From the NCBI GenBank assembly GCA_002281755.1, contig NCHB01000001.1, positions 62,001-126,000 on the forward strand: a DNA stretch of 64,000 nt. Direction: 5' to 3'. Source of the DNA: Sulfurovum sp. 16-42-52 (GTDB lineage: Bacteria; Campylobacterota; Campylobacteria; Campylobacterales; Sulfurovaceae). How positions within the stretch are numbered: position 1 is the first letter of the stretch; every line of letters begins with the position of its first letter. The notes under the pieces were generated by a model. The model was given only the letters and a program-made list of their open reading frames with translations. It made no database searches and was not told the DNA's origin. This document shows, one piece after another, positions 17,804 through 61,999 of this stretch. The translations under genes were made by a program, and so were the position numbers.

Positions 17804-18016
17804 TTATGGTGTACATTCCCGTGAACAGTAGTATTTGCCGTTTACGATAATGCTCTCTTTGACTGTCACATAGGTATGACAGGTTTCACACTCTACAAGT
17901 GTATCATCCTCAAGCTTTTTTTCTTGTGGACTTCTACCCATTTTGGGAAACTTTCCGCCAAAAAATTTATAGATTAATAGTCCCACTACAGCAAAAAAGA
18001 GTATTTTTATTAACAT
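17804..18016 (-). CDS. PP0621-like small membrane protein
   Basis: 70 aa with an N-terminal membrane segment (about 3-17) and a C-terminal CETC...YYCSREC cysteine set that could bind a metal. This layout matches the PP0621 family of uncharacterised bacterial proteins. It overlaps the end of rsmG by 7 bases and is probably in the same operon. Confidence 0.75.
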
Positions 18017-18603
18017 GTTTCATTCTTTATATAGAGATAATTGCGTTGGTTTTTTTGAACTATATCATAGCTTAGCTGATGGGGCATCTGTTCTATTTCA
18101 TCCAACACCCTAGAGCCTTTGTAAAACAGATAACGTGTCTTTGCATCACAAAGTCTGGATGTCAATTCAAGAAGTAATGCAGTGTTGGTCACCGCGCGCG
18201 AACTGATGAGTTCAAAAGGTGCATGCTCGACCTGCTCGACCCTTTTTCCCTCCACGCTCACACTAGAAAGCCCCAACTCTATGGCAGCATACTTCAAAAA
18301 GGAGACACGCTTTTTAAGCGGTTCAGCCAAAACCACCTCTGTCTGCGGCAAAGCGATAGCCAATACAAGTCCAGGAAAGCCTGCACCCGTGCCCACATCC
18401 AAGAGTGTTTTTGGTTTGTCTATAAAGGTTAAAGGATACAAGGCATCGACGATGTTTGCATAGATGGCTTCTATGGTTTTTGCACCTGTAAGGTTATGGA
18501 TCTGATTCCATTCATGTAAAAGTGAAGCAAAGTTTTCCAACTGTACGATTTGTTCATTTGCCAAGATGATCTTCTCGGCATCCAAATGTTGTGACAGATT
18601 CAA
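18010..18603 (-). CDS. rsmG: 16S rRNA (guanine-527-N7)-methyltransferase
   Basis: SAM-dependent methyltransferase (GidB) acting on 16S rRNA G527. The 197 residues contain [12 protein letters not shown] and the SAM motif [17 protein letters not shown] (about 82-98), plus SSRAVTN. The start overlaps the stop of the PqqD-like gene by 4 bases (ATGA). As I recall, rsmG lies next to ribA in C. jejuni; here about 7 kb of accessory DNA separates them. Confidence 0.94.
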
Positions 18604-18880: not shown

Positions 18881-19627
18881 TTATTCTCCACCTTCGAGTA
18901 ACTCTTCTTGCATCACAGGCATAAACTCTGCATTGAAGATAGAAGGCGTACCTCTTACACCCAGTTCCATCGTTGCCAGATTGGACTTTTCGATGTAGGC
19001 TTGTGTCTCAGACGAATAGACAAATGGTTTAGTGGCATCTTTGATAAGTATCTCATAGTGCGTTGAACCCTTCAGCATGATCTCTTCGAAACGTGCTTTT
19101 TTATCAGCATCATCGTTACCCTGCATAATCCACTCTATCATCGCCGGTGCTTTTTGATGAAAAGGAAGTGGAAAAAGTATCACATGCACTTTAAAATCAT
19201 CGAGTTTTCCGGCTACTGCTTTTTCAAAACGGTTACAGTATAGACATTCGGGATCCATGACGATGTAGAGTTCTTCGTCACCTTTGCCGTAAGAAAATGC
19301 AATCCCTTCAGAGATAATCTTCGCATCTTGAGGATACACCATCGCATTCCCCTCTTTATCATAAGCCGAACCGATGTAAAGCTCATCCGTCTTTTTATCG
19401 AGATATGCGGTAATGAACTGTGAACCCTGCGCAGACTGCGCTTCTAGTTTAAGTATATAACTCTGTGGTTTTTCAATCGCACCTTTAATGCTAAGAACCG
19501 GGTCTTGAAGCACCACATTTTTAGCCTTCAGTGCTTGAAGTTTTGCTTCGTCCACTATGGTATCTGCTGCACCCACTGTACAGACACACACCATCACCGC
19601 AAGTAGAGCACACAGTGCTTTGTTCAT
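18881..19627 (-). CDS. DsbC/DsbG-like thiol:disulfide interchange protein
   Basis: Periplasmic thioredoxin-fold protein. A signal peptide covers about residues 1-20 of the ATG at 19627, which is preceded by AAGGAA; the longer in-frame start at 19666 would put 13 polar residues before it and is rejected. DPECLYCNRFEKA holds the CLYC active site (about Cys128 and Cys131), and the thioredoxin cis-Pro loop GVRGTPSIF is present. The N-terminal part (about 25-110) resembles the DsbC dimerisation domain. It is 2 bases upstream of the PqqD-like gene. The predicted lasso core has no cysteine, so this protein probably serves other substrates. Confidence 0.85.
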   Translation of the reverse strand: MNKALCALLAVMVCVCTVGAADTIVDEAKLQALKAKNVVLQDPVLSIKGAIEKPQSYILKLEAQSAQGSQFITAYLDKKTDELYIGSAYDKEGNAMVYPQDAKIISEGIAFSYGKGDEELYIVMDPECLYCNRFEKAVAGKLDDFKVHVILFPLPFHQKAPAMIEWIMQGNDDADKKARFEEIMLKGSTHYEILIKDATKPFVYSSETQAYIEKSNLATMELGVRGTPSIFNAEFMPVMQEELLEGGE

Positions 19628-20288
19628 ATAGATGTTCCTTGGTGTTATTTTGTCAAAGTATAGCATTAAACATTTAACGCCAAACTGTTTAATCCTATCA
19701 TTACATCACATCATCTAACACTTTCAAAGAAAAACATGTTTACAAAGCTATCCAGAAAGATCCATAGAGTATTAGATTTAGACAGATACAGTTCGTTAAA
19801 TAAAAATAAGATTTCATTGACACTGTTAAAGAGTCACAAAGTAAATGACCTACCAAAACTTAAGCTCGCAATAGAGACGAAGCAGTTGAATTACTCCAAC
19901 AAGTTCTCTTTATAAAAACAGACGGCATTTTGGTCTGCAAACAAGTAGGAGTGCAAAGCATTTAAAAGGGTCATGGACTCTATGCGAGTGATGTGGTTAA
20001 AAGTTATATTTTGAGGTTGTTGATGGAGAATGAGAAGATGAAACATCACGGTAGATAATTACCTACAAAGGTCAGAAGGATCTAAATTCACATTAGGTAT
20101 GAGCATAGTCTTATGTTTCTTTAAACACTATTCGTTGCCCTATAGGAATTACTATCAGTCGCCACCTATATTCTGACCTTAACTAGAAAAGAGGATCAGC
20201 CCTCCTCTCTTAGATAGAATTCTTGTTATACTAGAAGCCTATAATTAAACCTAACGTTTTTTATTTTTGTCTGAAAACCATTATTTGA
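19628..20288. other. Gene-poor scar between the DsbC-like gene and the lasso cluster
   Basis: 660 bases without a convincing gene. On the plus strand, an open frame at 19736-19915 encodes 59 residues of unknown type. Further short open stretches follow in another frame and are broken by stops (about 19870-20055; fragments such as LLQQVLFIKTDGILVCKQVG and GLYASDVVKSYILRLLMENE). They look like remains of one broken gene that I cannot name. A 10-base inverted repeat (AAGGTCAGAA near 20079 and TTCTGACCTT at 20171-20180) spans about 100 bases. A terminator-like hairpin lies at 20184-20208. Confidence 0.55.
20184..20208 (-). terminator. Rho-independent terminator of the lasso operon
   Basis: On the minus strand the 6-base stem AGAGGA / TCCTCT with a 7-base loop is followed by TTTTCT. 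It lies about 80 bases after the precursor stop codon, where the end of the lasso operon would be expected. The stem is short and the U-tract is modest. Confidence 0.55.
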
Positions 20289-20414
20289 TTATAGTGGCGG
20301 GTTTGGCTTCTTAGCCCCCCCTTGACTTCCTTCCGCAGCGGTTCCTGACCCTCCAAGCGTAATTTTCTTTATTGGCATTTTTGTTATTTTAGGATTAGTC
20401 CAAGTTTTCTTCAT
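20289..20414 (-). CDS. Lasso-peptide precursor (A)
   Basis: A 41-codon gene, easily missed by gene callers. AAGGAA lies 7 bases before the ATG, and it starts 10 bases after the macrolactam synthetase stop. Leader residues 1-20 begin MKKTWTNPKI, giving WxxPxI, a variant of the YxxPxL motif read by lasso B1 proteins. Thr19 is at position -2, as needed by B2 peptidases. The core (21-41) begins GGSGTAAE: Gly1 and Glu8 can form an 8-residue macrolactam ring. A 13-residue tail ends KKPNPPL. There is no cysteine. The tail has no aromatic plug; Lys35/Lys36 or the Pro-rich end might hold the thread. The C-terminus is Leu, not the Ser phosphorylated in paeninodin-type peptides. Confidence 0.85.
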   Translation of the reverse strand: MKKTWTNPKITKMPIKKITLGGSGTAAEGSQGGAKKPNPPL

Positions 20415-20424
20415 ATTTATTTCC

Positions 20425-22317
20425 TTAAAAATTTTCTTTTATTATATCATAAGAATTCTGTACAAGACAAACTGCAACTATTTTCTCTACTTCTCTCATT
20501 TCTAATCTATCAATTTCAATTTTATTTAAATCTGCTTTTAACTTTTCATAATCTATATATGAATTTCTTTTATAATCAATTTTATTCATGCTACTTCGAA
20601 TAATTTTTAACACATTTTTATAATCTTTTTCGAGTGATTGATTTATTTTAGTTTCACTTGGCTTTGCAAACCACACAATATCTGAAGGCAATAAGTCTGA
20701 TACTGTCATTTTAATTAAAAATCGTTCTTTACACTCCACTAGAAAAAATAATTCTTCTGGAATTCCAATGGCAAATTCTATAATTCGTTTATCTAAAAGG
20801 GGATACCTATATTCAATTCTGTTTGACTGACCCATCAATGCCCAAGATTCTATTCTATGTTGAATATGCCCAAAATTATACTGGGCCAACTGATTTTTTC
20901 TAACACCCCGAACACTAGGTATTTCTGCATCTTTATGCGATTTCATGAAACTTTCAAATTCTTTAGTTAAATACCTATATCTATGCGCGTTCCGATAATT
21001 ACTTTTGTAATTTCTAAGTTTGCGAAATACCTTTAGAGCATTAGGAGATAAAAAATTTATTAGTGTCCGCTTCAATAATTTTTTCCAGGAATAAGACAAA
21101 TATTTTTTCTCTTGTAATAAATAATAAAATGCTGTAAAAATCTTCCCCTGACTAATAAGACCTGAAATATAAGAATAACCATTGTAGGATATCAATTCAT
21201 CTCCTCCCCAACCAGATAATATAACCCTTGCATTCATTCTCTTCATTTGACACTGAATATAATTCTCTCCCCAGTAGTACATAGTTCCTTGAGTAAAAAT
21301 ATTATGTGTTCTTATACATTGTTCTATGTATGCCGGATCTATTTTGAATTCTTCGTGAATAATATTTTCTTCTCCTGCTGCTATTCTCCTGCTAAAATTC
21401 CAAGCTTCGTATTCGTATTTATTTTTATCTTCCGGTATATCTATCCAGTTAAATGTATAAAGAGGTTTTTCTATCTTGTGAAGTTTCTGTGATGCAAGCA
21501 CCGCAATAGGTGAAGAATCGATACCACCACTCATATGAGATCCGACAGTATAATCAGTACGAAGACGTACTTCAATAGCATCATCATACAATTTCCTTAA
21601 TTGTTCAACATACTCTCCAAAAGTTTTATAATGAATTATTGGAGATTTTTCTAGAGACCAATAAGTAGTTTCATTGATTTTGTCTTTAGTAACAATCATA
21701 CTCATTGCTGGAGGAAGTTTTTTGATACTCTCAAAAAAAGTTGCCTGTTTTGAATGAAGATAATTGGATTTGATGAAAAATGCTATTGTATTTTTATCTA
21801 AACCTTTTGGGATTTCAGAACAGCCCAAAAATGATAGAATATCATTTGAAAAAATAAATCTATCATCTGTACAAAAAAAATACAATGATTTAATGCCTAC
21901 ATGATCTCTAGCACAAAACAGTTGCTCTTTTTCACTATCCCAAATCGCAAAAGCAAAATCGCCCAAGAGATGTTTCGGACACTCTTCACCCCATTTCTCA
22001 TAAGCTGCCAGTATAAATTCGCTATCACCGATCTCCCCCATAGGTAGATCAGGTAAAGTAAGTTCTTTGGCTAATTCATCACGATTGTCTATCCTTGCAT
22101 CCATTGTCAGGACATACGTATCTTTTTGCATCGGTAGATGCTCATATTTAGACTCTGGCGTATTCCAAAGCATAGCATGTCGCAATGCTATGGATCCATC
22201 TATCCACAAATTACTCTCATCCGGCTCCCAACTAGACATAGTTTCGAGCATTTCCCCCGCAATATTTTTGTCAATAGGATTTCCATTTCGATTAAAAATA
22301 CCAAAAAATCCGCTCAT
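20425..22317 (-). CDS. Lasso macrolactam synthetase (C; asparagine-synthetase-like)
   Basis: 630 residues with an N-terminal class-II amidotransferase-like domain (1-220) and a C-terminal ATP-pyrophosphatase domain carrying SGGIDSSP (263-270). It begins MSGFFG: the nucleophilic Cys2 of true asparagine synthetases is replaced by Ser, so glutamine hydrolysis should be lost. This is expected for lasso cyclases such as McjC, which adenylate the ring Asp or Glu and let Gly1 attack. Its start overlaps the kinase stop by one base and its stop lies 10 bases before the precursor gene. The gene is visibly AT-richer than its neighbours, which suggests transfer. Plain asparagine synthetase is less likely given the neighbours. 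Confidence 0.88.
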   Translation of the reverse strand: MSGFFGIFNRNGNPIDKNIAGEMLETMSSWEPDESNLWIDGSIALRHAMLWNTPESKYEHLPMQKDTYVLTMDARIDNRDELAKELTLPDLPMGEIGDSEFILAAYEKWGEECPKHLLGDFAFAIWDSEKEQLFCARDHVGIKSLYFFCTDDRFIFSNDILSFLGCSEIPKGLDKNTIAFFIKSNYLHSKQATFFESIKKLPPAMSMIVTKDKINETTYWSLEKSPIIHYKTFGEYVEQLRKLYDDAIEVRLRTDYTVGSHMSGGIDSSPIAVLASQKLHKIEKPLYTFNWIDIPEDKNKYEYEAWNFSRRIAAGEENIIHEEFKIDPAYIEQCIRTHNIFTQGTMYYWGENYIQCQMKRMNARVILSGWGGDELISYNGYSYISGLISQGKIFTAFYYLLQEKKYLSYSWKKLLKRTLINFLSPNALKVFRKLRNYKSNYRNAHRYRYLTKEFESFMKSHKDAEIPSVRGVRKNQLAQYNFGHIQHRIESWALMGQSNRIEYRYPLLDKRIIEFAIGIPEELFFLVECKERFLIKMTVSDLLPSDIVWFAKPSETKINQSLEKDYKNVLKIIRSSMNKIDYKRNSYIDYEKLKADLNKIEIDRLEMREVEKIVAVCLVQNSYDIIKENF

Positions 22318-23216
22318 TACTTCATCTTTCTAAAGCTACTATGATGTTCGAGAATAGTATTATATACTTCATTTAACCTGTTGAAATCCCAAGGAACTGT
22401 AACTTTATATACAGATAGTCTCTGCGCAATTTCCCCTAAATAGTCGAGCTGTTTTGACTCGGGAAAGAACAGATTCATCTCTTTGGCACTACGTAATGCC
22501 ATGAATTTATCCACCCCTGTAAGCATGCTAACCTTCACATCATTATCACCTTCAACTTTTTGCAAAACATAAATACTATGCATTGCTTTTGGCGTTTTTG
22601 CAAAATTTTCTACAAAAAAACCCAAATCTTCAATATCTCGATATGGGCGATGATATGGATAGGAAGATACTGTATAGAAATCACCATCTTTTTGAAACGT
22701 TGCAACCTTATCATCAGAAATCATCGTATGTCCTTGCTTCATAAAGTAGTCTGTCATCGTTGATTTGCCACCAAAAGATTCGGCAATGAAAAGTACAGGT
22801 TCTTCATTTATCTCCACTGCACCTGCATGTAAAAAATCATAAATCCCTTCGATGATAAAAAAAATAGGTAACACAACATGTAGGGCCCAATATTTCAGTA
22901 GCTCTTCCGTAAAGTTTTCATGTTTGATGTATTCTAGTTCCATCATTCCGCTAGACCAGAAAAAAGTAATGACATCTTTGACTTCAAATACCCAAATCTG
23001 CCCCGTACCCCTATCCATAAACTCACGATCTGAATAGAGTCCAAGATCCCGTCCTTGACTTTCAGGAAAAATCATTTCACATTGTAGTTTCTTTTTTAAC
23101 TCAGAAGCAAACAAACTACTTTCTCTTACTTTTACTTGACCAACAAATGAGTCTACTGATTCTTTGTCATCCTCCAATCGTGGTATGAACTTTATATAGT
23201 GATTATACGCGATCAT
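22317..23216 (-). CDS. HPr-kinase-like protein of the lasso cluster (K)
   Basis: About 299 residues from the ATG at 23216, which overlaps the B2 stop as ATGA (an in-frame ATG at 23228 is also possible). The C-terminal kinase core shows HAGAVEI, the P-loop AESFGGKST and ISDDK, the usual HprK/P order. The N-terminal half is unrelated to HPr-kinase regulatory domains I know. In paeninodin-type clusters such kinases phosphorylate the C-terminal serine of the precursor. Here the precursor ends in Leu, so Ser23, Thr25 or Ser30 would have to be the target, or the role differs. The first P-loop position is Ala instead of Gly. Confidence 0.85.
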   Translation of the reverse strand: MIAYNHYIKFIPRLEDDKESVDSFVGQVKVRESSLFASELKKKLQCEMIFPESQGRDLGLYSDREFMDRGTGQIWVFEVKDVITFFWSSGMMELEYIKHENFTEELLKYWALHVVLPIFFIIEGIYDFLHAGAVEINEEPVLFIAESFGGKSTMTDYFMKQGHTMISDDKVATFQKDGDFYTVSSYPYHRPYRDIEDLGFFVENFAKTPKAMHSIYVLQKVEGDNDVKVSMLTGVDKFMALRSAKEMNLFFPESKQLDYLGEIAQRLSVYKVTVPWDFNRLNEVYNTILEHHSSFRKMK

Positions 23217-23674
23217 TCTTTTCCCCATCCAAATACTGAAAGTACAGCAAAATCTTCATGCCCACTGCCACCAGTGATGATGGTCTCTCCACACTGTGAC
23301 CAGGCATGTGCTTTCATCTTTTCTTTACTCTCTTCATCTTTAGCAGCACCCAGGTAAAATACACCCGAAATGCCGCGTTTTTGAAGCATCTTTTGTGCCG
23401 TAAGCGACTGTACCAGGCAGGCACTTTCCCAAGGTGTGTAGGTAGCTGCTCTCATGATGGATTTCCCTATTATTATAGCTCTTTCTTGTTCGGTTTGTGT
23501 GAGAGTTGCTAAGTCAGGCTGTTGGGTATGATGCTCCAATGAACGCGTCAAACGCTTGAAGGAAACCGTCAGGATGGCTGCACGCATGACACCCAGCATC
23601 ATATACGCTTCCAAAAAAAGTTTTTTCTCTTCTGAAGATATAGCAGTAAATTTTCTGATTTTATTGAACATCAA
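23213..23674 (-). CDS. Lasso leader peptidase (B2; transglutaminase-like)
   Basis: 153 residues, the size of stand-alone B2 proteins, which cleave the leader with help from B1. The cysteine-protease set is Cys86 in TPWESACLVQSL, His123 in KAHAWSQCG and Asp141 in GHEDFAVLSVFGW, in the order known for McjB-type enzymes. No RRE domain is fused, so a separate B1 is required. The start lies within the end of the ABC transporter gene (14-base overlap) and the stop overlaps the kinase start. Confidence 0.9.
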   Translation of the reverse strand: MMFNKIRKFTAISSEEKKLFLEAYMMLGVMRAAILTVSFKRLTRSLEHHTQQPDLATLTQTEQERAIIIGKSIMRAATYTPWESACLVQSLTAQKMLQKRGISGVFYLGAAKDEESKEKMKAHAWSQCGETIITGGSGHEDFAVLSVFGWGKE

Positions 23675-25427
23675 AATCCTCCTGTATCAGCCCTTGCTTT
23701 TGGAGTTCTTCATACGTTCCTTCTGCTTTTATCCTGCCTTCTTCGATGAGATAGATGTAGTCAGCTTGTTTGATGGTTGTGGTTCTGTGCGCGATGATGA
23801 CGGTGGTGCGTCCCTCCAAAAAGGGTGCCAGTGTCTCATAGAGGTGAAACTCTGTGGCATTGTCCAGTGCAGAGGTAGCTTCATCAAAGATGACTATCTT
23901 TGGGTCTGAGAGGATGAGTCTTGCGATGGCGAGTCTTTGACGCTGTCCACCAGAGAGACGGATGCCGTTTTTTCCGATGCGTGACTCTAACCCTTCTTGC
24001 AGATTTCGTACAAACGCCTCAAGCTGTGCGGCTCTGAGTGCCTCATAAATTGCTGCATCACTTTTTTCTTTCGAGAGTGTTAGATTCATGCGAATGGTGT
24101 CATTAAAAAAGAGGCTCTGTTGCAGCATCAGTGCTACATTTTCACGGACGATAGGAAGCCCTATCTGCTCTATGGGAACACCGCCGTAAAGTATCTCACC
24201 TGTATGAACAGGATAAAACCCTACCAATATCTGTGCGATAGTTGTCTTTCCGCTTCCGCTGGCTCCTATGAGTGCGATCTTTTGTCCTTTACGGGCTTGC
24301 AGGCTGATGTCATGCAAGACTTGACTACCTTTACTATAGTTAAAACTGATATGTTTCAGCTCGATGGAAGTACTTTTTATATCTTCAAAAGGATTTGTTT
24401 TATGCGGATAGTGTGGTTCCATAGAGAGCGCAAGCAAGGTGTTGATGCGTTCTAAAGCCGGCTTTGTACCTTGATAAGCAATAACCAGCCCCATAAGCTG
24501 CTGGATGGGCTGCAACAATGTCGAGAGATAAAACAAAAAGGCTATCATCATCCCAATGGTCAGATCGGAGTACGCTACCGCTGCGATGCCCATAGCACGA
24601 AAGATATCCACAACGACATTGGTCAAAAGCGTGGAAGAACTGTGTGCAACGGCAGCTTTATGCCCATACTCAAGAGATGCTGTTTCGATGGCTTTGGCAA
24701 GATTTTGCAAGATGCCAAAAAAGCTGTGTTCCTGATTGCTCGCACGCACCTGCACAAAAAGATCCAAGGTTTCAGCTAGCAGTTCATGGTACAACTCATA
24801 CGCTTCATGCTGACGGCGTAACAATTCACCCGTTTTACGCCCAAGCACTTTTGAAAAAGCTAAAAAAAACGGATTTAACACAAAAACAAGCAGAGCCAAC
24901 ACCCAGTTCATCCAGAGCATCACTGCTGCAATACCTACTAGCATCAAAGAAGCAGACAAAAGCGTTGTGACCACCTGTCCTGCAAAACCACTGACACTCT
25001 CCACATCCTGCACTGTTTTTGATGCGATGCCGCCAGATTTGAGTGTTTCGTACTCACTCAGTTCAACACGTTCAAGATGATGCAAAATACGATGGCGAAG
25101 CAGGTAGCTTATCTTTTCTGTAATTTTGGTGGCATAAAAGGTTTTTGTATTATTGAAATAAAATGCCAAAAGGCGCAACACTAAAACCATTGCCAAAATA
25201 ACCGTGATATAAACCCACACTTGGGAACTTCCAAGAACACCTGAGATCATCTCCGTCATCTTTCCGGGATGTCCCAACAACACCTCATCGATCAAAAGCG
25301 GGATGAGCATCGGTATAGGCAATAAAAGAAGCGTTGCCAAAACCCCATACAAAGAACTGCGCCAAAAATCATGCTTTTGTGCTTTAATCTGAGTGTAGAG
25401 TGTGCTAAAGGTATAATTTTTTGTCAT
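23661..25427 (-). CDS. ABC exporter with fused ATPase (lasso D)
   Basis: 588 residues: six membrane segments (about 20-310) then an ATPase domain with Walker A GASGSGKTT (388-396), signature LSGGQRQRL near 492 and FDEATSALD. It lacks an N-terminal C39 peptidase, so it exports an already matured substrate, as McjD does, giving immunity at the same time. It is the first gene of the operon. Its ATG is preceded by ATCAGGCAACA; the GGCAAC there is complementary to the 3' strand of the upstream riboswitch. A lipid exporter such as MsbA is the alternative, but the context argues against it. Confidence 0.88.
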   Translation of the reverse strand: MTKNYTFSTLYTQIKAQKHDFWRSSLYGVLATLLLLPIPMLIPLLIDEVLLGHPGKMTEMISGVLGSSQVWVYITVILAMVLVLRLLAFYFNNTKTFYATKITEKISYLLRHRILHHLERVELSEYETLKSGGIASKTVQDVESVSGFAGQVVTTLLSASLMLVGIAAVMLWMNWVLALLVFVLNPFFLAFSKVLGRKTGELLRRQHEAYELYHELLAETLDLFVQVRASNQEHSFFGILQNLAKAIETASLEYGHKAAVAHSSSTLLTNVVVDIFRAMGIAAVAYSDLTIGMMIAFLFYLSTLLQPIQQLMGLVIAYQGTKPALERINTLLALSMEPHYPHKTNPFEDIKSTSIELKHISFNYSKGSQVLHDISLQARKGQKIALIGASGSGKTTIAQILVGFYPVHTGEILYGGVPIEQIGLPIVRENVALMLQQSLFFNDTIRMNLTLSKEKSDAAIYEALRAAQLEAFVRNLQEGLESRIGKNGIRLSGGQRQRLAIARLILSDPKIVIFDEATSALDNATEFHLYETLAPFLEGRTTVIIAHRTTTIKQADYIYLIEEGRIKAEGTYEELQKQGLIQEDFDVQ

Positions 25428-25660: not shown

Positions 25661-26227
25661 CTAAAGCAGATGCCCCAACTGTTCTTTTTTTGTTTGAAGA
25701 TAGCCTTCATTGTAGGGGTTAGGGGTGATTTGGATGGGGAGGCGTTCGATGATTTCTATTGCACCTAAACTCTCTAGTTTTTTGGGGTTGTTGGTGAGTA
25801 GTTTGAGTTTGGTAATGCCAAAATGCTTTAAAATGAACTCTACCACTTCATAGGTGCGTTCATCGGCTCTGAAGCCGAGCTGATGGTTTGCCGCAACGGT
25901 GTCAAATCCTTTGTCCTGAAGTGCATAGGCGTTGACCTTGTTGAGCAGTCCGATATTTCTGCCTTCTTGTCTGTGGTAGATGATCATCCCGCCCTCTTTG
26001 GCGATAAGCTTTTGAGCAAAATGCAGCTGTTCGCCACAGTCGCATTTTACTGAGCCCAGTGCATCACCGGTGAGACACTCGGAGTGTACACGCACGATGG
26101 GTGCCTCAGCCAAATGGTCTGTAAAAATGGCAAGGTGTTCTCTGTGCCCTTCCTTAAATGCTTGTATATTAAAGGTTCCGTACTGCGTAGGAAGGGTGGC
26201 GATTTGCGATATTTCTATAGGCTTCAT
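25661..26227 (-). CDS. ribA: GTP cyclohydrolase II
   Basis: First step of riboflavin synthesis. HSECLTGDALGSVKCDCGEQL holds the zinc cysteines and YHRQEGRNIGLLNKVNAY is conserved. The ATG at 26227 (MKPIEISQ) gives 188 aa, normal for a stand-alone enzyme; the longer frame from 26278 adds 17 unlikely residues. No DHBP synthase domain is fused. As I recall, ribA neighbours rsmG in C. jejuni; here the lasso block separates them. It is divergent from hemB. Confidence 0.94.
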   Translation of the reverse strand: MKPIEISQIATLPTQYGTFNIQAFKEGHREHLAIFTDHLAEAPIVRVHSECLTGDALGSVKCDCGEQLHFAQKLIAKEGGMIIYHRQEGRNIGLLNKVNAYALQDKGFDTVAANHQLGFRADERTYEVVEFILKHFGITKLKLLTNNPKKLESLGAIEIIERLPIQITPNPYNEGYLQTKKEQLGHLL

Positions 26228-61633: not shown

Positions 61634-61999
61634 ATGCCACAAAACAATATACTATATGATAAAAGTTATGCCTTTTCAATACGCATAGTCAAGCTGACCC
61701 AATATCTTTGTGATGAAAAAAGGGAATTTATCCTAAGTAAACAAATTATTCGTTCTGGCACGGCTATTTGTGCGTTAGTAAGCGAATCAAAATTTGCGCA
61801 GTCAAGAGCAGACTTTTTAAATAAACTGATGATTGCGCTGAAAGAGGCAAATGAGACACAGTATTGGATAAATTTGCTCTACGACACAGACTATATCTCA
61901 AAGCAAATGTTCGATAGTCTTATTGCAGACAATAAAGAACTTGTAAGTCTCTTGGTTTCCATAACCAAATCATTAAAAGATAAAGGCATTACAAAGTAA
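61634..61999 (+). CDS. S23-type four-helix-bundle protein, copy 2
   Basis: 121 residues, clearly related to copy 1: YAFSIRIVKLTQYL, KQIIRSGTAICALVSESKFA, QSRADFLNKL, ALKEANETQYW. The gene is on the opposite strand from copy 1 and again lies between inverted heptad arrays. It sits just upstream of uvrB, whose TTG start lies 14 bases after the right array. No rRNA gene is near. Confidence 0.9.
   Translation: MPQNNILYDKSYAFSIRIVKLTQYLCDEKREFILSKQIIRSGTAICALVSESKFAQSRADFLNKLMIALKEANETQYWINLLYDTDYISKQMFDSLIADNKELVSLLVSITKSLKDKGITK

Follow-up and report, generated by a model that had tools for sequence, protein, structure and literature searches.

Genes of the lasso locus

The window, a 64,000-nucleotide stretch of a Sulfurovum contig, carries six lasso-peptide genes. 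Five of them, D, B2, K, C and A, form a compact operon on the minus strand, and the sixth, B1, lies further downstream (Table 1). The overlaps between successive genes from D to C measure 14, 16 and 1 nt, and C is separated from A by 10 nt. All six genes are intact. The first-pass annotation had recognized a lasso system from the set of five genes. Their order, strand and coordinates are borne out, with B2 extending to 23674 if its TTG start is used, and the assignment is supported by profile, tree and precursor evidence. The operon had also been called complete, which it is not, because the discrete PqqD/RRE protein B1 falls outside it. B1, which had been overlooked, is separated from A by 620 bp of non-coding DNA and a Dsb-like gene. 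A chance assembly of genes is excluded because B2 scores 92 bits against a cut-off of 33 and the gene set recurs in tens of genomes. Promoter and terminator scans of the locus gave nothing above chance.

Table 1. Features of the window, listed from the upstream border of the island; the last line is a separate observation
Feature	Position	Strand	Basis or remark
ribA, upstream border of the island	25661..26218 (open ORF to 26278)	-	NF001591/TIGR00505
D, ABC exporter, 588 aa	23661..25427	-	PF00664 + PF00005; no peptidase domain
B2, lasso leader peptidase, transglutaminase fold	23213..23671 from ATG (TTG start at 23674)	-	NF033537, PF13471
K, HPr-kinase-like, candidate precursor kinase	22317..23228	-	weak sequence matches; invariant residues; AlphaFold model
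C, lasso macrolactam synthetase, 630 aa	20425..22317	-	NF033535 best match; tree
A, precursor, 41 aa	20289..20414	-	leader and core below
A, leader MKKTWTNPKITKMPIKKITL	20414-20355	-	
A, core GGSGTAAEGSQGGAKKPNPPL	20354-20292	-	
Decayed N-acetylmuramoyl-L-alanine amidase gene	19736..20046	+	tblastn against the intact gene L047:3618-4289 (PF01510)
Dsb-like thioredoxin-fold protein, between A and B1	18881..19666	-	weak DsbG/Thioredoxin_2 matches
B1, PqqD/RRE leader-binding adaptor, 92 aa	18600..18878	-	PF05402; NF033536; overlaps rsmG start
rsmG, downstream border of the island	18010..18603	-	TIGR00138
23S rRNA-intervening-sequence protein	61634..61999	+	PF05635

The exporter D shows the ABC_membrane and ABC_tran domains only and, as first described, has no peptidase domain. 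It is 70-83% identical to its counterparts in most loci of the same genus (60-87% among close homologues), and is expected to secrete the mature lasso peptide. With 92.5 bits, the peptidase B2 is above the curated cut-off (33) of the NCBIfam lasso B2 profile, which does not bear out the grouping with non-RiPP transglutaminases that would have spoken against a lasso system; a sequence search of the Protein Data Bank gave no match to it. The catalytic triad proposed for B2, Cys86/His123/Asp141, stands in two of its three members. Cys86 and His123 (Cys85 and His122 when counted from the ATG at 23671 instead of the TTG at 23674) are invariant in 31 B2 proteins, whereas Asp141 stands in a variable column, occupied by D, E, A, S and other residues, and judging from this alignment Asp141 is not a conserved catalytic residue.

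The synthetase C begins with MSGFFGIF and thus has Ser at position 2 in place of the amidotransferase Cys2, in accordance with the first description. Its best NCBIfam family is the lasso cyclase model NF033535 (407 bits, short of its strict cut-off of 525). Among the 48 synthetases of a tree, C falls into a 43-row clade with cyclases of lasso context (SH-aLRT 99), whereas three AsnB-type proteins of the window's own genome fall outside it; the trees are quick searches, and in this one the three AsnBs are not united in a single clade at the root. A grouping of C with non-RiPP asparagine synthetases, which would have spoken against a lasso system, is therefore not what the tree gives. The cyclases of the phylum sample form two main clades, type I, which includes that of the window, and type II (100), and a third form is present in loci L052, L061 and L067. 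Second 'C' genes on the opposite strand of L066 and L072 were considered as extra lasso cyclases, but the tree places them with AsnB, and the L072 protein starts with MCGIVGF and has Cys2, so that both are ordinary asparagine synthetases.

The HMM comparison that the first-pass annotation had proposed for its enzymes turned out uneven: B2 lies above its lasso cut-off, C and B1 lie below theirs, and K matches HPr-kinase models weakly by sequence. The AlphaFold model of K (pLDDT 89) has HPrK/P structures as its best matches in the Protein Data Bank (E 2e-7). Residues H134, S151, G154, K155, S156, D172 and D173 are invariant in an alignment of 40 homologues, and H134, K155, D172 and D173 correspond to the His-Lys-Asp-Asp residues reported in lasso kinases (PMC9266682).

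Precursors and the leader-binding protein

In profile searches A matches no curated family model. Its leader, MKKTWTNPKITKMPIKKITL, contains the WxxP motif as WTNP and has Thr at position -2 (T19), and its core, GGSGTAAEGSQGGAKKPNPPL, carries Gly1 and Glu8 at the spacing of a lasso ring and ends in PPL. A Gly1-Glu8 ring is predicted for this core, and the mass of the predicted lasso is 1861.928 Da.

Related precursors, whose absence from homologous loci would have counted against the assignment, do occur there and have a common layout, in which a [W/Y]xxP leader with Thr at -2 is followed by a core with an acid at ring position 7-9. The acid formed no part of the leader pattern by which the 27 precursors were gathered. 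Of the 26 scorable precursors, 23 have Asp or Glu at core position 7-9, whereas 5000 shuffles gave 6.7 on average and never more than 15; G453 is among those that fit, by way of its WVSP motif, and G225 is not, its Asp being at position 10. Asp10 is present in three YxxP-type precursors in all, those of G225, G508 and G494, if cleavage obeys the Thr-2 rule; they are encoded at L060:6276-6440, L062:10682-10813 and, in G494, L087:6932-7093. In these, either the ring or the cleavage site would differ.

Two groups of small reading frames were rejected as further precursors. The ORF at 19736-19915 of the window belongs to the amidase remnant, and the small ORFs between D and B2 in L044, L051, L056 and L059 are read as toxin-antitoxin pairs, resembling MNT/HEPN or YefM/YoeB by inspection, that are inserted in the lasso operons of relatives.

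Lasso systems with a split B protein need a discrete leader-binding protein, B1. The B1 of the window scores 66 bits against PF05402 and 64 bits against the lasso PqqD model NF033536 (cut-off 80), and among solved structures its sequence is closest to TbiB1 (5v1u, E 8e-12). It is the sole PqqD-family protein found in the genome of the window and is not adjacent to the operon. Because the Dsb-like gene and the 620-bp gap separate it from A, B1 is probably on a different transcript from the genes D to A.

The RREs described with the LPP clusters of Bacillota distinguish W from Y leaders through two positions, N33/D70 in the LPP type and G42/Q79 in the paeninodin type (PMC13381572). An alignment to the PDB sequences 9x90 and 9x8z, which their residues at the two positions lead us to take for PbaB1 and LppB of that study, places Asp36 and Asp73 of the window's B1 at these positions. 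Among 47 B1 proteins of the island none has Gly at the first position and 46 have Asp at the second. A Tyr-type B1 that is alone in a genome beside a Trp leader would fit relaxed specificity, and an actinobacterial B1 has been found to be promiscuous (PMC13381572). Specialization of B1 for each pathway was considered and set aside: the B1 tree mixes islands that contain only lasso genes with non-lasso islands (8 changes; shuffled mean 9.5).

The island between ribA and rsmG

In about 22 genomes of the genus no gene separates ribA from rsmG. In lasso carriers the commonest arrangement is that the operon, including D and B2, sits between them. The nearest relative, G465, has ribA, the Dsb-like gene and rsmG in this order (L091) and neither B1 nor any lasso genes. 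Compared with it, the window has an extra segment of 6.0 kb on the ribA side of the Dsb-like gene, and B1 on its rsmG side. The Dsb-like gene was considered as a member of the pathway but, because it occupies the same slot in this lasso-free relative, it is regarded as a flanking resident and not clearly a pathway member. The amidase remnant in the gap between A and the Dsb-like gene (E 2e-15) has internal stops and is 76-82% identical in DNA to the intact gene of L047. The gene order with D first and A last had been singled out as unusual. It is indeed the order found here, but the layout of the locus changes from species to species and this is one version of it; A is sometimes ahead of C or on the opposite strand.

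A phylum-wide sample of 397 genomes yielded B2 in 8, and B2 was found in 29 of 175 genomes of the family and 24 of 78 of the genus, most of the genomes being incomplete MAGs and many fragmented. One locus, L059:5276-9472, is decayed: D is split into two ORFs, a fragment of K is left and C is missing, although B2, the Dsb-like gene and B1 are intact. In L045, L050, L053, L073 and L074 a secreted subtilase (PF00082), which recurs in two families, lies between C and B1 on the opposite strand. It might serve immunity or processing, or it might be an unrelated passenger.

The genes of the island differ in how they follow their hosts. The median pairwise identities of D, B2 and B1 are 0.75, 0.64 and 0.65, and they correlate with those of the host genes ribA and rsmG (Mantel p 0.007, 0.026 and 0.005, respectively). 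The cyclases have median identities of 0.42 (type I) and 0.30 (type II) and show no positive correlation with ribA and rsmG in 5 and 10 genomes (10 and 45 pairs). We read this as a chassis of D, B2 and B1 that is kept vertically, in which cassettes of cyclase, kinase and precursor appear to be exchanged. Cyclases of types I and II lie side by side in G507, G469 and G372, with one B2 found in each, and on separate contigs in G442, where again one B2 was found. G507 and G469 have both WxxP and YxxP precursors, the latter of type II, and a single B1 per genome. In G494 a cyclase, a kinase, a FAD oxidoreductase, B1 and a YxxP precursor lie between ribA and rsmG (L087, 1705-7093), and despite this locus no B2 was found in the genome. 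The same locus, as well as L064:5826-8612 and L052:2428-4770, contains a recurrent pair adjoining K and C, namely the uncharacterised c26 and c39, a FAD enzyme resembling geranylgeranyl reductase. The pair is possibly a further tailoring module.

Many genomes that have no B2 carry a different cassette in the slot between ribA and rsmG. It encodes an exported LamG/Ig-domain or similar protein (c16), a lipoprotein-like protein (c14), a protein of 56-75 aa (h1), K, often the Dsb-like protein, and B1; the order c16-c14-h1-K-B1 is seen in L080-L090, L095, L096, L099, L103-L105 and L116. A Tat-like signal containing RRxFLKK is present in the small protein, and inside this signal there is an invariant YxxP followed by LxxLGxLxKPT. 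The spacing of Tyr, Pro, Gly and Thr is common to this protein and most YxxP lasso leaders, with Tyr+9 occupied by Gly and Tyr+15 by Thr or Ser. The kinases of this cassette form a clade of their own (2 label changes; shuffled mean 15), to which the clade of the window's K is sister. The cassette is a candidate for a new RiPP-like family with its RRE motif within a Tat-like signal. G225, a single contig, and G444 have the non-lasso and the lasso cassettes together and one B1. In G474 (210 contigs) no B1 adjoins the lasso genes found (L048), and the one B1 detected lies in the island. G470, G475 and G491 carry two B1 genes each, and therefore the sharing of B1 is not universal.

Comparison with known systems and interpretation of the locus

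The operon very probably makes a lasso peptide, a predicted product belonging to a known class. The best explanation of the locus as a whole, to which we give a probability of roughly 0.9, is a class II lasso operon in a modular island between ribA and rsmG, with a single B1 that would serve all the cassettes present. B1, encoded 1.4 kb away, would bind the WxxP leader of A and hand it to B2, whose cut would fall after Thr-Leu and separate leader residue 20 from core residue 1. C would then adenylate Glu8 and close the Gly1-Glu8 isopeptide ring around the tail, GSQGGAKKPNPPL, and D would export the product. K probably acts as a precursor kinase whose target is not the customary C-terminal Ser, and Ser3, Thr5 and Ser10 of the core are candidate sites. 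On a wider scale, the inherited D, B2 and B1 would form the chassis that takes the swapped cyclase-kinase-precursor cassettes.

The locus has much in common with the paeninodin-type clusters (A, C, K, B1, B2, D), including the gene set, the WxxP leader, the HPrK-like kinase with its four residues and the discrete B1 and B2. It differs from them in the order D-B2-K-C-A and in the detached position of B1 beside rsmG. The cyanobacterial lasso clusters L009-L013 also have B1, B2, C, K and D together, and their C is about 30-41% identical to that of the window over the best segment. Unlike the window, they have these genes in one block in the order B1-B2-C-K-D.

These likenesses invite a simpler, though unlikely, explanation: that this is an ordinary operon of the paeninodin kind, in which K acts on the C-terminus, the island is incidental and the single B1 results from assembly gaps or chance. 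Known lasso kinases phosphorylate a C-terminal Ser. Ser ends many related precursors, one type I precursor weakly matches the paeninodin family model, and K has the residue set of the lasso kinases. However, the core of the window ends in Leu, whereas the substrates of PadeK, ThcoK and SyanK carry Ser; the core of the nearest homologue ends in RRPA. Of the precursors in the clade of the window's K 1 of 7 ends in Ser, and of those in the other clade of lasso kinases 8 of 10 do (Fisher p 0.015, indicative only, since the sequences are related and phylogeny is uncorrected). Phosphorylation by K at a site other than a C-terminal Ser is thus the likeliest reading. Furthermore, Asp36 and Asp73 of B1 contrast with the Gly and Gln of the paeninodin-type B1, and assembly gaps fit poorly with G225 and G469, both single-contig genomes with one B1 each.

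It is quite improbable that the operon is a decaying or silent remnant in a patchy island, with K perhaps idle. The dead amidase gene, the degenerate locus L059 and the nearest relative without B1 or lasso genes could be taken in this way, but the six lasso genes of the window are intact, their spacing is that of an overlapping operon, and the active-site residues of B2 and K are conserved.

Clusters of the LPP type in Bacillota, often found beside lasso clusters, combine an RRE and an HPrK-like kinase acting on YxxP leaders; they possess a separate RRE, which discriminates against the leaders of lasso precursors, together with an exporter and a dedicated SpI peptidase (PMC13381572). The RRE, the HPrK-like kinase and the YxxP motif resemble the neighbouring non-lasso cassette, but the LPP clusters have an RRE of their own, whereas in the island one B1 is apparently shared and the motif of the second precursor is inside a Tat-like signal. 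The idea that C and K of the window make some other amide-linked or phosphorylated peptide, such as an LPP-like linear phosphopeptide cleaved by B2, draws on these clusters and on the occurrence of K and B1 without C or B2 in the neighbouring cassette, and is very improbable given an intact C within the lasso clade, the absence of SpI among the operon genes, Gly1 and Glu8 at lasso spacing, and an acid conserved across homologues.

To return to the modular island with its class II operon, the chances are about even that one resident B1 serves several RiPP pathways in the genus: the WxxP lasso, the YxxP lasso and the Tat-signal precursor (RRxFLKK..YxAPxLxxLGxLxKPT) with its own kinase clade. If true, the shared B1 would be the opposite solution to that of Bacillota, whose RREs diverged, keeping the lasso and LPP pathways apart.

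B2 is present in about a sixth of the family, and a search of the open-access literature subset found no lasso-peptide report from Campylobacterota or Sulfurovum, which is not proof of absence. The window's K, in having no C-terminal Ser substrate, points to a different phosphorylation site. The swapped cyclase-kinase-precursor cassettes on one chassis are a natural series that would be useful for engineering and for studying the substrate choice of the enzymes. Finally, with a single B1 facing W-, Y- and Tat-like leaders, RRE cross-talk, a question raised recently, becomes directly testable in cells that seemingly have solved it by sharing the protein.
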